Origin: a virus
Virus record (IMG/VR): IMGVR_UViG_3300025425_000167
Coordinates: 1-23,381 of that record
Direction: 5' to 3' (one strand)
DNA length: 23,381 bases
Part shown: positions 5,181-14,295 of the stretch, one piece after another
Layout: each line of letters begins with the position of its first letter
Position numbering within the stretch: the first letter of the stretch is position 1
Notes under the pieces: model-generated
What the model was told of the DNA's origin: nothing
Seen by the model: only the letters and a program-made list of their open reading frames with translations
Databases searched by the model: none
Translations under genes and position numbers: made by a program

Positions 5181-5399
5181 TTATGTACTACAGTCGTTTC
5201 TTGTGTTCCATGCCTGCGTCATCAATTCGCATACTTTCGGCGGCGACTTAAAGCGTGTAGCCCACCTCATCGTGATCCCACAGTCTTCGCCGGAGCATCT
5301 TATTTCAAAAAAACACTCTTTGGTATCAGATTCAACACCGAATCCAAACCATATATGAGGGCTGCCGCAGTACGCACACGGTTTGAGCTCTTCAGTCAT
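5181..5399 (-). CDS. Lar-like restriction alleviation zinc protein
   Basis: It encodes 72 residues starting MTEELKPCAYCGSPHIWF. It has two Cys pairs (CAYC, and CSGEDC near residue 35-40) and an ending of the type MTQAWNTRND. This three-part pattern (ELKPCPxCG, middle Cys pair, then AWNxR) defines the Lar family of phage/prophage proteins, which lessens host type I restriction in the characterised case. GGAG lies eight bases upstream, inside the end of the XRE gene, with an eight-base overlap. It is the last gene of the minus-strand operon. The activity is inferred from the family only. Confidence 0.72.
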   Translation of the reverse strand: MTEELKPCAYCGSPHIWFGFGVESDTKECFFEIRCSGEDCGITMRWATRFKSPPKVCELMTQAWNTRNDCST

Positions 5400-5757
5400 C
5401 TATCTTGCTCCATTTATCCGAATATAAAACTCCAAAGTCACTATCCTTATATTCTTCCGGTGTCAACGCTTCTTCTGAAACTAGAGTAGAGACACGCAGG
5501 AAATCTGGGTAGTCTGCAAACCTAACTACAAGAGCTATATCCAACTTAAATGCAATTGCTAGTAATGTGTTCAATGTAACGCTGCCGTAACCAGGGTTTT
5601 CATATCTAGACACGACACTCTGCGTAGTCCCAAGTTTTTTTGCAAATTCTTTTTGAGACATACCGCCCCGTAGCGCTCTCACTTGTGAGGCCAGAAAGCC
5701 TCGCGTATGCGTGTCAACATATGACTGGCGGAAGTCTTTGTTTGCAAATTGCTTCAT
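5392..5757 (-). CDS. XRE-family helix-turn-helix regulator
   Basis: The central part, residues about 20-75, is a clear helix-turn-helix: SQVRALRGGMSQKEFAKKLG, then TTQSVVSRYENPGYGSVTLN and TLLAIAFKLDIALVVRF. This is the pattern of small phage and antitoxin-type XRE proteins. I choose ATG 5757 (MKQFANKDFRQSYVD) because relatives start this way and GAGGG lies upstream; an ATG at 5784 overlaps the previous stop as ATGA and would add nine residues. The C-terminal acidic tail (DSDFGVLYSDKWSKIDD) is unusual. It lies deep inside the operon rather than next to a promoter, so it may control a distant site. No toxin partner is apparent beside it. Confidence 0.8.
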   Translation of the reverse strand: MKQFANKDFRQSYVDTHTRGFLASQVRALRGGMSQKEFAKKLGTTQSVVSRYENPGYGSVTLNTLLAIAFKLDIALVVRFADYPDFLRVSTLVSEEALTPEEYKDSDFGVLYSDKWSKIDD

Positions 5758-5780
5758 TAAGTATTTAACCCTCTTGAGAA

Positions 5781-5948
5781 TCATTCTCTTTCATTCCACT
5801 CCTCAATTGCATCCTTCAAGTGCACGTAAGAATTCAGCTCTATCCCACAGTCAAAACATGAAATGAGTGACCATCTTTCTGACTTGTCTTCATATCCTCC
5901 CACAAACTCAGAGTGACACTTGGGACACGGCTTTAATTCTTCAGTCAT
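5781..5948 (-). CDS. Lar-like small zinc protein
   Basis: It encodes 55 residues: MTEELKPCPKCHSEFVGG, then ISCFDCGIELNS, ending KDAIEEWNERE. Two CxxC pairs and the EAxxxWN ending give the Lar pattern, like the gene at 5181. Its TGA overlaps the ATG at 5784 as ATGA, and its own ATG overlaps the stop of the next gene upstream in the same way. A second antirestriction-type protein in one operon suggests variants against different restriction systems, or zinc-ribbon proteins with another role. Confidence 0.65.
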   Translation of the reverse strand: MTEELKPCPKCHSEFVGGYEDKSERWSLISCFDCGIELNSYVHLKDAIEEWNERE

Positions 5949-10427: not shown

Positions 10428-10464
10428 TCTCTCTATCCTATTGTAATGTGATTCAATGGATGCT

Positions 10465-10699: not shown

Positions 10700-10990
10700 A
10701 TGAATCAAGAGGATTTTGTTGTAGTCAGCACTCGCATGACAAAGGACATTATGGAGCGCGTACAGCTAGTGTTTGACATGGGTTGCAAGGAGCATGGAGT
10801 GACCGAAACTAAAGCAATATTTGCAGGGTCATTAGGCATGGCCGTAGGATCTATGTTGTCAACATTGGCACTAGACTTGGACGACTTACACCACCGCGCG
10901 GCTTTACTTGAATCTTTTGAAAAACTTTACAAAGGTACGATCAAAGAGCATACGCGCGAATATGGAACTAGAATAGAGATAATGCAATGA
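10700..10990 (+). CDS. Hypothetical protein, 96 residues
   Basis: ATG 10700 has GGGAG about eight bases upstream and starts MNQEDFVVVSTRMTKDIMER; a longer frame from 10601 overlaps the previous gene and is not needed. The protein has strand-then-helix at the start (VVVSTRMTKDIMERVQLVFD), again compatible with a ribbon-helix-helix fold, a small-residue helical middle (AIFAGSLGMAVGSMLSTLAL) and a charged end. No family is certain. It ends in an ATGA overlap with the next gene. Confidence 0.6.
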   Translation: MNQEDFVVVSTRMTKDIMERVQLVFDMGCKEHGVTETKAIFAGSLGMAVGSMLSTLALDLDDLHHRAALLESFEKLYKGTIKEHTREYGTRIEIMQ

Positions 10991-11355
10991 ACGAAAATGA
11001 CGTAGAGAATCGACCATTGCTTTATATATTAAGCGACACTTTCGAGCCAATACCTCTTGTGAAGGGGGATGAAAGCACTATAAGGTGGGGGAAATTCATG
11101 GAAAGCGCACAAAGAAGGGCTGCAAGAACTGTATTGAGGGAATCGCCAGAGCTGTTTGTATCCACGGCATTCATGGGCTGCGACCACAGTTTTGGCGTGT
11201 CTGGGCCACCTAAATTATGGGAAACTATGGTTTTTGACGATGAAGGCGCAATGGACGGCTACACTCGAAGGTATACAACTCATGAGCAGGCTATGAGTGG
11301 ACATACAATGGTAGTGGGTAAAGTGTTGGCAGATAATCCGCTGTTGAAGCATTAG
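10987..11355 (+). CDS. Conserved phage protein of unknown function, 122 residues
   Basis: It starts MNENDVENRPLLYILSDTFE by an ATGA overlap. Residues about 55-110 read ELFVSTAFMGCDHSFGVSGP, PKLWETMVFDDEGAMDGYTR, RYTTHEQAMSGHTMVVGKV. This pattern (VSTxFLGxDH-F, PxLxETMVF, YxTxEEAxxGH) is one I know from many phage and prophage hypothetical proteins, with no settled function. The two His and Asp positions in it could bind metal, which is only a suggestion. It closes the three-gene early cluster. Confidence 0.68.
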   Translation: MNENDVENRPLLYILSDTFEPIPLVKGDESTIRWGKFMESAQRRAARTVLRESPELFVSTAFMGCDHSFGVSGPPKLWETMVFDDEGAMDGYTRRYTTHEQAMSGHTMVVGKVLADNPLLKH

Positions 11356-11408: not shown

Positions 11409-11542
11409 TTGGACAATCTCAAATCACAAATACTAATAGGACAAATTAGCATGGAACAACTTAAGTATCGCAGAAATTTATTTTTAGTTCAAGCATTGAT
11501 CTAAATGATGGGTATGTGTATCGTAGAGAGGAATTAAACGCT

Positions 11543-11578
11543 GTAAGCGGCTGCATCTTAACCGGAGTTGCCGCTTAC
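11543..11578 (+). repeat. Perfect 9-bp inverted repeat
   Basis: GTAAGCGGC (11543-11551) and GCCGCTTAC (11570-11578) form a perfect nine-pair stem with an 18-base loop. It lies within the -1 frame of the split gene. It is about 55 bases past the shift site, too far for a classic frameshift stimulator, and it is followed by a second hairpin and T-run at 11588. Confidence 0.5.
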
Positions 11579-11587
11579 ATCAAACCA

Positions 11588-11613
11588 GGTGGTGAGAACC
11601 GCCCGCTTTTTTT
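11588..11613 (+). terminator. Likely intrinsic terminator
   Basis: GGTGGT pairs with ACCGCC (one G-U pair) across a GAGA tetraloop, followed by CGC and seven T residues (11607-11613). This would end transcription of the early cluster or attenuate it just before the replication genes, since the next gene starts at 11623. The three-base gap before the T-run makes it moderate. Confidence 0.5.
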
Positions 11614-11622
11614 AGGACTAAA

Positions 11623-12021
11623 ATGAACCAACCCTTTTTTGAGAACAAGATTAAGAACATAAACGAACCAAACATAGGAAGGGAACATAAACAAACCCAA
11701 CAGAAGGTCGGGAACGTAAACAAACCAAAATTAGGAAAGGAACGTAAGCAAATGATAACATTATATAGATCCAAGTCAACAGCTTGTGAAAGATATTTAT
11801 TTGATCGTATGATATGTGAAGAATTTAAGAAAATGCAGACGCATCCATGCGCTGCCTACAAGCGAAACATCGGAGCAACCACACTCCTAGCTTCATGTCG
11901 AATAACCCTGTTGCCAACCAAGCTAAAGGAATTAATATGCACGCCAACCCCAATCAAGGAATTAACCTGCCGCAAACCAACCCCAGCAAAGGAATCAATA
12001 TGCACGCCAATACTAACATAA
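11623..12021 (+). CDS. Hypothetical protein overlapping the replication initiator
   Basis: ATG 11623 has AGGA five bases upstream and overlaps the preceding TGA as ATGA. The first 45 residues are basic and repetitive (NINEPNIGREHKQTQQK, NVNKPKLGKERKQ) because they are encoded by a tandem DNA repeat. A plausible folded stretch follows (MITLYRSKSTACERYLFDRM, ICEEFKKMQTHPCAAYK). The last third overlaps the initiator in another frame and looks unnatural. A start at ATG 11752 is also possible. It may be a real small protein, a leader, or merely the frame through an origin region. Confidence 0.45.
   Translation: MNQPFFENKIKNINEPNIGREHKQTQQKVGNVNKPKLGKERKQMITLYRSKSTACERYLFDRMICEEFKKMQTHPCAAYKRNIGATTLLASCRITLLPTKLKELICTPTPIKELTCRKPTPAKESICTPILT
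11655..11754 (+). repeat. Tandem 28-29 bp repeat cluster 1 (iteron-like)
   Basis: Four head-to-tail copies begin at 11655, 11683, 11712 and 11740 (the last partial). Each starts GAAC(A/G)TAA(A/G)C, followed in the first and third by (G/A)AACCAAA and TAGGAA. Periods are 28, 29 and 28 bases, close to whole helical turns. They lie just upstream of the initiator gene and helicase gene, where phages carry origin iterons. Confidence 0.6.
11916..12008 (+). repeat. Tandem 30-33 bp repeat cluster 2 (iteron-like)
   Basis: Three direct copies occupy 11916-11945, 11946-11978 and 11979-12008. They share AACC, then AAGGAAT(T/C)AA, then TG at a fixed place; copies 1 and 3 end in ATATGCACGCC. Copy 2 has a three-base insert, which preserves the frame, and the encoded peptide repeats as KGINMHAN, QGINLPQTN, KGINMHAN. 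The cluster lies at the start of the initiator gene, like the iterons inside lambda O. Confidence 0.6.
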
Positions 12022-12623
12022 ATCACAGCCAGGTCAATAGCTACCAACATAAAAATTCATCAAAAGTATATTCTATTGAAGAAAAAATCCGCTGGAACAA
12101 AATAAAAGCACCGCATTACGCCTGGGCTGAGTGCGTATCCCTAAAGCATAAATGCTCACTAAATGAAAAACATTTCTTAAAAACAATAGTTAGATGTTCG
12201 AATAGCAAAGGGGTAAGTAACATCGGAGTGCAAGCCCAAACTTATCAATTCAACTTAACAACTAACGGGAAGCAGGTAAAGCAACGCACAATAGAGAGAT
12301 ACATAGCCAAGTTTAGAAAACTGAAGGTTATTAAGAAGTACGATAGTAGAAAGTTCCGCAAATCCCACGCCACAAGGCTTGTGTTCAAAGCGACCGACAA
12401 AGTGTCGGTACTAATATACTCACCAAAGAGTATAGTTAGGCGAGGTGGGGTAGTAAGTTCTATAAATTCTACTCTAAACGCCCCTCCTCCGCTTGTAGCG
12501 GTCGGGGCTGAGGAGCCAGAACAGAGCAAGGAGGAGCAAATACGAGAATCGAAAGAAAAAATAAAGAAAATGAGACAATATTTTAGAAAAAACAACATAG
12601 GAGCAAGTAGTGGAACTAGCTAA
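11937..12623 (+). CDS. Replication initiation protein, O-like (winged helix)
   Basis: It lies directly before the DnaB helicase gene and overlaps it, the place of lambda O or P22 gene 18. A winged-helix region spans AECVSLKHKCSLNEKHFLKT, then KQRTIERYIAKFRKLKVIKK, where TIERYIAKFRKLKVI is the recognition helix and turn pattern. The C-terminal third is highly charged (EEQIRESKEKIKKMRQYF) and may contact the helicase. I use ATG 11937 since AAAGGA lies six bases upstream; ATG 12000 has the same signal, and ATG 11895 or 11847 are longer but lack one. The protein is basic, as an origin binder should be. DNA repeats at its start are the likely target. Confidence 0.65.
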   Translation: MHANPNQGINLPQTNPSKGINMHANTNINHSQVNSYQHKNSSKVYSIEEKIRWNKIKAPHYAWAECVSLKHKCSLNEKHFLKTIVRCSNSKGVSNIGVQAQTYQFNLTTNGKQVKQRTIERYIAKFRKLKVIKKYDSRKFRKSHATRLVFKATDKVSVLIYSPKSIVRRGGVVSSINSTLNAPPPLVAVGAEEPEQSKEEQIRESKEKIKKMRQYFRKNNIGASSGTS

Positions 12624-13905
12624 AGTAAACGCGGAATTTTTAGAGGAAACGGTTTTGGGGTGCATTTTAAAAGACCCATGTCAATACGAAGTGGTTTGTG
12701 AGCATATAGACGCTCAGGACTTTAACGTGCAATTGAATCGAAAGATTTTTGAAGCAATGACGCTTCTACGTAATGATGATAGACCGATTGACACGTTTAC
12801 AGTTGAGGAAGTACTCCGACTTAAAGGCCATACGGGTGATATATTTACTCTCTGCGTAGACATGCAACGCAGCGTACCCCACGCAAACCATGCTAGCGAC
12901 TATGCTAATAGTCTAAAGAACGTCACCCATGGAAGGGAATTTGATGGATATATGGAAAATTGGCGCACAATGGCGGACAAGGGCGAACCCGTCGGAAAAG
13001 TGCTAGCTATGATTGATAATGATGTGCAAAAACTATCGGGTGCCACAGTTGACGAAGGGGTGATGATTGGCGAAGGGCTACAAATATTCTTCGATGATTA
13101 TGAAGACATCCTTGAAGGTGGTGGCCCACTTCGAGTGGACACGGGGTTTAAAGACTTGGATTTTATACTGCAAGGTATGCGCCCTGGTAATTTAGTTGTG
13201 ATCGGCGGTCGCCCCAGCATGGGCAAAACCACGTTCGTACTAAATGTTGTACGCAACATCATGTTAGCGCAAGACTTCCCGATTTTATTTTTTAGCCTGG
13301 AAATGAGCCAAGACCAAATCATTCAATCACTTTTAGCCTGTACTGCTGGTGTTCCACTACAACATTTGCGTGAGTGTCCGATCCCACAGGCAACACTTGA
13401 TAAAGCCCTTACAGCCACTCAAACACTTTGCAACAGTAAACTAAAGATAATATCTAAAATAAACCCCACCCTTGCAAACATAAAAGCGCAAGCAAGAAAG
13501 TTTAAACGAAAGTATCCCGATTGTGGTTTAATAGTGATTGATTATTTAAGCTTTATAAAAAGCCCTGGTGCTGAAAATAACGTCTTAGAGATAGGTGCTA
13601 TCACAAGAGACTTAAAGTTACTTGCCGGTGAGCTTGAATTGCCGCTAATATTACTTTCACAACTTAGCCGTGACTGTGAGAAGGGTGTAGCACGTCAACC
13701 TCAACTTAGCGACTTCAGAGGCTCGGGCAGTATTGAACAAGACGCAGATATTGCAATGTTTGTGTATCGCGACAAAGCGGCTAACGACAACGCAGCAAAA
13801 ATAATCGTTGGTAAAAACAGATTCGGCAAATGCGCAGAAATAAGCCTCATATTTGACGGAAGCACCGCAAGGTTTAAAAGCGTGGGTTATAACAACCAGG
13901 AATAA
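12610..13905 (+). CDS. dnaB: Replicative DNA helicase, DnaB-like
   Basis: It unwinds DNA at the replication fork as a hexamer. The 431-residue protein starts at GTG with AGGAG six bases upstream. An N-terminal helical domain (residues 1-110, starting with the typical EETVLGCILKDP) is followed by the RecA-like motor: Walker A GGRPSMGKTT (199-208), FFSLEMSQDQ, Walker B LIVIDYLSFI (Asp311), ILLSQLSRDCE, and LSDFRGSGSIEQDADIAMFV. The length is close to the usual 430-470. It overlaps the initiator by 14 bases, so both are probably made together. All motor motifs appear intact. Confidence 0.95.
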   Translation: MELAKVNAEFLEETVLGCILKDPCQYEVVCEHIDAQDFNVQLNRKIFEAMTLLRNDDRPIDTFTVEEVLRLKGHTGDIFTLCVDMQRSVPHANHASDYANSLKNVTHGREFDGYMENWRTMADKGEPVGKVLAMIDNDVQKLSGATVDEGVMIGEGLQIFFDDYEDILEGGGPLRVDTGFKDLDFILQGMRPGNLVVIGGRPSMGKTTFVLNVVRNIMLAQDFPILFFSLEMSQDQIIQSLLACTAGVPLQHLRECPIPQATLDKALTATQTLCNSKLKIISKINPTLANIKAQARKFKRKYPDCGLIVIDYLSFIKSPGAENNVLEIGAITRDLKLLAGELELPLILLSQLSRDCEKGVARQPQLSDFRGSGSIEQDADIAMFVYRDKAANDNAAKIIVGKNRFGKCAEISLIFDGSTARFKSVGYNNQE

Positions 13906-13920
13906 AAAGGAGTGCCAAGG

Positions 13921-14295
13921 ATGGCCACTATTGTATACAAGGAAGTACACGAGCAGCGATTGTTTGTGAAGTGGTTTTATTTGGAGTATCCCAATGAGAA
14001 AATAGCCGCGTTTTGTAACGGTGGCAAGAGAACCGCGCTACAGACAAAACTATTGATTTATGAAGGGTTGCTTCCTGGTATTTGCGATCTTATAATTTTA
14101 ACTCCCAAATACCCGTATCATTCTCTTTTTTTGGAGATGAAACGAACCAAAGGAGGGGTTATATCTAAGGAACAAAAAGATATGATCTTGCATTTAAAGT
14201 CAAAACACTACAAGGCAGAAGTATCCAAAGGATGGGAAGTGGCCAGAGATATAACTTTAGAATATATGTCGTTGCCTGATTGGAGGTATGAATGA
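13921..14295 (+). CDS. VRR-NUC domain nuclease
   Basis: A 124-residue single-domain protein with AGGAG eight bases before the ATG at 13921. The VRR-NUC core is seen in EHEQRLFVKWFYLEYPNEK-like start, then GGKRTALQTKLLIYEGLLPG, ICDLIILTPKYPYHSLFLEM and KRTKGGVISKEQKDMILHL, with SKGWEVARDITLEY at the end. The likely catalytic set is CDL (Asp), FLEMK (Glu and Lys), and the Gln in EQ, in PD-(D/E)XK order. Such stand-alone phage proteins probably act on branched or flap DNA. It follows the helicase. The C-terminal half has a diverged partial copy at 14551. Confidence 0.88.
   Translation: MATIVYKEVHEQRLFVKWFYLEYPNEKIAAFCNGGKRTALQTKLLIYEGLLPGICDLIILTPKYPYHSLFLEMKRTKGGVISKEQKDMILHLKSKHYKAEVSKGWEVARDITLEYMSLPDWRYE

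Follow-up and report, generated by a model that had tools for sequence, protein, structure and literature searches.

Introduction

In lambdoid phages, the origin of replication consists of iterons and an AT-rich tract, located in the middle of gene O (PMC7466680). The iterons of phages P22 and L are located in gene 18, beside the DnaB-type gene 12, with four repeats of about 20 bp in P22 and six copies of an 11-bp repeat in phage L (PMC8022706). Phage SPP1 has two origins, oriL and oriR, each made up of direct repeats and an AT-rich unwinding element, with oriL located in the initiator gene (PMC6316719). In P22, the leftward gene erf is followed by c1, orf48, gene 18 with the origin and the DnaB-like gene 12, and the annotated rep_origin comprises positions 32840-32984 of NC_002371.

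In iteron plasmids, the iterons are located upstream of the initiator gene. At the origin of Vibrio cholerae chromosome 2, RctB uses two types of site, 12-mers and 39-mers, one of which promotes and the other limits replication (PMC5395669). Precedents exist for iterons next to a gene for DnaB, and even for two types of site.

Results

Gene order around the repeats

The DNA analysed, here called the window, is a virus record of 23,381 bases in which end repeats were not found; the record is probably a fragment. The genes for ssb, an Erf-type annealing protein (erf) and a RecE-like exonuclease (recE) are oriented leftward and are followed by small genes, the presumed initiator gene and the gene for DnaB. 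An earlier, sequence-only reading of the same DNA had placed DnaB directly downstream of the initiator, and the profile match of the helicase confirms this (Table 1). The start of dnaB overlaps the end of the presumed initiator gene.

Phages related to the window by their terminase (45-69% identity) were considered as a comparison set and set aside: they carry different replication modules, none has the initiator of the window, and only one of them (L131) contains a DnaB match (28%). A small gene just upstream of the candidate origin region (10987-11355) is 38-44% identical to genes in the terminase-related phages L102, L103, L104 and L109, where its orientation is the opposite one. Elsewhere in the window, two adjacent glycine-rich proteins of similar composition (984-2462) are probably tail-tip or fibre proteins, and a leftward gene (5392-5784) resembles, by eye only, a helix-turn-helix regulator or antitoxin (QKEFAKKLGTTQSVVSRYENPGYGSVTLNTL).

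Table 1. Coordinates of features in and around the candidate origin region (window numbering)
Feature	Position	Strand	Details
Perfect 10-bp inverted repeat	11542..11579		TGTAAGCGGC / GCCGCTTACA, 18-nt gap; candidate hairpin or operator
Terminator-like hairpin	11588..11610	+	GGTGGT-GAGA-ACCGCC, then CGCTTTTTTT; just before cluster 1
132-codon open frame, uncertain gene	11623..12021	+	Ribosome site AGGACTAAAATG; spans both clusters
Cluster 1	11655..11752	+	Copies 11655-11682, 11683-11711, 11712-11739, truncated 11740-11752
AT-rich stretch	11741..11820		72-74% AT (windows of 60-80 bp); follows cluster 1 immediately
Presumed initiator gene	11895..12623	+	Start 11895, 11937 or 12000
Cluster 2	11913..12005	+	Copies 11913-11942, 11943-11975, 11976-12005
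Two ribosome-site/start pairs inside cluster 2	11926..12002	+	AAGGAATTAATATG (start 11937), AAGGAATCAATATG (start 12000)
A-rich tract, candidate unwinding element	12006..12095	+	47-50% A; after cluster 2
DnaB-family replicative helicase	12610..13905	+	PF03796, E 5e-75
VRR-NUC nuclease, Holliday-junction-resolvase-like	13912..14295	+	Follows the DnaB gene

Two repeat clusters, not detectably related

Cluster 1 has the core GAACRTAARCRAA and a spacing of 28/29/28 bp, which corresponds to about 2.7 helical turns and is not a multiple of three. The sequence-only reading had counted four copies of 28-29 bp here; the array is present, with three full copies and a fourth of which only about the first 13 bases are kept. 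Cluster 2, with RCCAACCNNNNNMAAGGAATYAAYMTGC as its approximate unit, has a spacing of 30/33 bp, that is about three helical turns and multiples of three. The three copies of 30-33 bp previously described for it at 11916-12008 are there, with their starts shifted to 11913, 11943 and 11976. The Tandem Repeats Finder (TRF) reports cluster 1 at 11655-11752 with period 28 and score 110, and cluster 2 at 11913-12010 with period 30 and score 76; no other tandem array of the window scores as high as either. Dinucleotide shuffling of the 1.1-kb region never reaches a score of 76 in 1000 trials (the best scores 58), and when the complete window is shuffled 100 times, the best array scores 59. Both repeat clusters are real, beyond chance.

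The two clusters had been thought to be possibly related through an AACC followed in register by GGAA. The register differs: 7 bases separate the two motifs in the first and third full copies of cluster 1, the middle copy lacking GGAA, and 8 bases separate them in all three cluster-2 copies. A relationship is likewise unsupported by alignment, since 25% of shuffles (31% when units are shuffled) equal the best local alignment between the clusters. Scored with a weight matrix built on the core of cluster 1, the four copies of this cluster reach 22-28 bits, and the next best site, at 11 bits, is at background level; the matrix has no match in cluster 2. In viral contigs, the cluster-1 pattern was found only in one contig nearly identical to the window. 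No inverted repeat was detected within the repeats of the window.

Sequence around the clusters

An AT-rich element, expected between the clusters if they belong to an origin, is present there and adjoins cluster 1. The tract following cluster 2 is A-rich on the coding strand and belongs to the top 1-2% of the window by A content. Ranked by AT content among window positions, the flank of cluster 1 is only in the top 0.4-3% and that of cluster 2 only in the top 1-11%, depending on the exact placement of the frame. Within the A-rich tract, the sequences TACTAACATAAA and TACCAACATAAA, located 31 bp apart (12011-12053), continue the rhythm of about 30 bp seen in cluster 2.

Upstream of cluster 1, the inverted repeat and the terminator-like hairpin with its T-run (11542-11610) are a possible operator or attenuator; terminator-like sites are not enriched overall, with 3 found versus 2.1 expected. 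The sequence between 11 and 13 kb contains no DnaA box with zero or one mismatch, and neither a match to Rfam nor a stable RNA leader was found, the folding energy being no better than that of shuffles (z -0.66). A change of GC skew near 11.7-12.0 kb had been put forward as a sign of the origin. The skew minimum is instead at 10438, where leftward and rightward genes diverge, and GC skew was discarded as origin evidence: the minimum tracks the switch in gene direction and the record is a fragment. By the criterion that had been put forward, this result speaks against the origin, but the skew test carries little weight because the skew of the fragment follows gene direction.

The gene preceding dnaB

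The gene before dnaB has up to 258 codons and ends at 12623. Two of its possible starts, 11937 and 12000, have a good ribosome site (AAGGA-N6-ATG) and both are located within cluster 2, the middle copy of which has CTG in the start position; the ATGs further upstream, 11847 and 11895, lack a good ribosome site. Whether cluster 2 lies inside the initiator gene, as had been proposed, is decided by which start is the true one. In the longest gene reading the cluster occupies 8-21% of the gene; otherwise it overlaps the start. Because the starts with good ribosome sites sit in its repeats, cluster 2 probably spans the true start or comes before it, and is not plainly inside the gene. Cluster 1 is upstream of the gene.

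Searches of viral contigs, GTDB genomes, phages, plasmids and PDB sequences for homologues of the presumed initiator found only one near-identical copy, as did a search of every open frame in about 170 retrieved loci. The contig carrying this copy is 99.8% identical to the window, has both clusters unchanged and is the sole contig that keeps the initiator; being so similar, it has no power to show whether the repeats persist with the initiator in relatives. The protein matches no family in Pfam, PHROGs or NCBIfam, it has no O-like or HTH_36 match, and 14 of 20 initiator groups, compared by profile, gave a negative result. A Rep-family initiator, as in iteron plasmids, was not recognised by Pfam, NCBIfam or plasmid matches. 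The Cdc6_C winged helix appears at E 0.08, below the cut-off. The models predicted from the single sequence are too poor to be used (mean pLDDT 40 and 37); in these low-confidence models, helices and two strands follow each other in an order compatible with a winged helix. The carboxy-terminus is a basic coil. The amino-terminus is Asn/Gln-rich and unstructured. The protein is presumed to be an initiator from its position and the weak winged-helix signal; as a recognisable homologue was not found, the label is taken from position.

The 132-codon open frame that runs through both clusters is longer than expected by chance (p = 0.0013, shuffles) and overlaps the start of the presumed initiator gene. 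Its codon bias is weak, no better than that of the initiator frame in the overlap, and it has no family match. It could be a small gene translationally coupled to the initiator.

Tandem arrays in other DnaB loci

Via alignment of seven DnaBs, 80 further DnaB-encoding viral contigs were gathered, and 88 loci, including some near-identical pairs, were scanned for arrays with a period of 15-60 and at least 2.5 copies. Array density in the 1 kb before DnaB is 0.14 and 0.13 per 500 bp (two bins, 88 loci), whereas the remaining bins, up to 5-6 kb from DnaB, have 0-0.026 per 500 bp. Among the 79 loci whose sequence extends 1.5 kb or more upstream of DnaB, 25 have a tandem array there. This number is a lower bound, because the tandem-repeat finder misses the origin repeats of lambda and D3 and catches those of P22 only as weak, short arrays below threshold. 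At the main threshold, not one of the 25 array-bearing loci carries a pair of arrays, a count that is perhaps a lower bound for the same reason, and a weak second array appears at a looser threshold only in L040 and L069; the view that two different sets are unusual is upheld.

Ten array-bearing genes were sampled, and all of them match PHROG families of replication initiation proteins, O-like or DnaD-like loaders. Where an initiator gene is recognised (26 array-bearing loci), the array is located inside it in 24, and in the remaining two it is 358 and 436 bp upstream. Survey arrays are generally near mid-gene, starting at 29-50% of the gene. The AT content rises on the DnaB side of the arrays, by a mean of +0.10 compared with +0.005 before them (n = 24, Wilcoxon p = 6e-5). 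This asymmetry is shared by both clusters of the window. On average, the tract after the arrays is A-rich on the coding strand, like that of cluster 2. Many arrays are followed by A-rich runs with the short direct repeats CAGAGACTAC, ACAAAAGACAA, ATTACTACTACT and TATAAAGAAA (loci L019-L098 and L004-L011, 0-1 kb upstream of dnaB). As they recur in several phages, these short repeats are possible common signals for unwinding or loading.

Discussion

The layout of the window resembles that of P22: a presumed initiator gene with direct repeats is followed by a gene for a DnaB-type helicase, leftward recombination genes including erf are on the other side, and an A-rich tract adjoins the repeats. 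However, P22 has a single set of repeats of about 20 bp in the middle of the gene (43-61%) and a recognisably O-like initiator, whereas the window has two unrelated sets of 28-33 bp, located at or before the 5' end of a gene whose product matches no family. With lambda it shares direct repeats that adjoin an AT-rich tract and are located in the gene immediately preceding the one for helicase loading. The lambda iterons differ in being 18 bp long and in the middle of O (39-48%), the partner gene encodes the loader P in lambda and DnaB in the window, and the window repeats are without a detected inverted repeat. In sum of features, the window has at least three direct repeats beyond chance beside a helicase gene, an AT-rich tract of moderate strength on the helicase-gene side of them and DnaB immediately downstream, but its repeats are not centrally placed in the coding sequence of the presumed initiator.

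SPP1, with gp38, likewise has two repeat regions and an AT-rich element beside each of them. There, the regions are about 13 kb apart, similarly organised and bound by one protein, while the clusters of the window are about 160 bp apart and unrelated in sequence, so that a binding sequence common to both, as in SPP1, is not apparent. The origin of V. cholerae chromosome 2 offers a precedent for one initiator with two types of site. Unlike this origin and those of iteron plasmids, the window yielded no Rep-type domain and no DnaA boxes near the repeats, and the phage has its own DnaB.

The region at about 11.65-12.1 kb is probably an origin of theta replication, with the gene before dnaB encoding its origin-binding initiator. 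The main evidence is the positional survey of DnaB loci. The sequence-only reading had proposed an origin from the position of the repeats, and this proposal is strengthened by the survey, by the AT-rich tract after each array and by the layouts of P22 and lambda. Judged by these comparisons, the region most probably acts as a lambda/P22-like origin and would be a modest structural variant, double and 5'-shifted in its layout. It is not a lambda/P22-type origin proper, because the repeats are not mid-gene and the initiator has no O-like family match.

In the mechanism that we propose, the small basic protein encoded before DnaB would bind the direct repeats as iterons, open the adjacent A-rich tract and deliver the phage's own DnaB, as is thought for gp18 and gp12 of P22. 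Cluster 2, with its three-turn spacing and its strand-asymmetric A-rich tract on the helicase-gene side, is more likely to be the core origin, and cluster 1 a second, regulatory or accessory set of binding sites. As the candidate start codons of the initiator lie within cluster 2, a protein bound to this cluster could at the same time restrict how much initiator is made.

The roles of the two clusters might be distributed differently. Cluster 1 could on its own be the origin, its iterons preceding the initiator gene as they do in iteron plasmids, with unwinding at 11741-11820, cluster 2 then being a duplicated translation start and amino-terminal peptide repeat with no replication role. Cluster 1 is the stronger array and its flank ranks higher by AT content; its 28/29-bp spacing breaks the reading frame, which suggests that it is kept as DNA and not as peptide. 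The spacing of cluster 2, a multiple of three, lets it be read as ANQAKGINMH / ANPNQGINLPQ / TNPSKGINMH, with a ribosome site in each unit. However, the differences among the cluster-2 copies fall on codon positions 1, 2 and 3 in numbers of 4, 2 and 4, so no constraint on a peptide is visible, and the location of cluster 2, about 600-700 bp before DnaB and with an A-rich flank, fits the survey well; we consider this division of roles unlikely. Somewhat more doubtful still is a bipartite origin with an initiator of a new family, in which two unrelated iteron sets would flank the melting region and one of them would also serve as the repeated ribosome-binding and start site of the initiator gene itself. 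If it were true, filling of the origin would shut off initiator synthesis.

One or both clusters might alternatively be operators for an early-operon regulator or for the product of the frame starting at 11623, and not replication sites. Repeated operators are frequent in early phage regions, the terminator-like hairpin and the inverted repeat are immediately upstream, and the unrelated sequences look as if different proteins read each cluster. Among the 88 DnaB loci, however, such arrays concentrate in the initiator region before DnaB and are nearly absent elsewhere, which leaves this explanation with a slim chance. That the clusters are tandem duplications without function, in an A-rich stretch of low complexity that evolves fast, would agree with the Asn/Gln-rich, unstructured amino-terminus and the A-rich strand, and a diverged relative to show conservation was not found. 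It is nonetheless highly improbable, given that two unrelated arrays, both scoring above all shuffles, are located within 350 bp where other phages concentrate such arrays.

The survey of DnaB loci provides a simple rule for locating origins in unannotated phage contigs: arrays with a period of 15-60 are concentrated in the 1 kb before the phage dnaB and are nearly absent from the rest of the surrounding several kb. If confirmed, the window would contribute a new origin-binding protein from an uncultured phage, and it would show that iterons need not be located in the middle of the gene.
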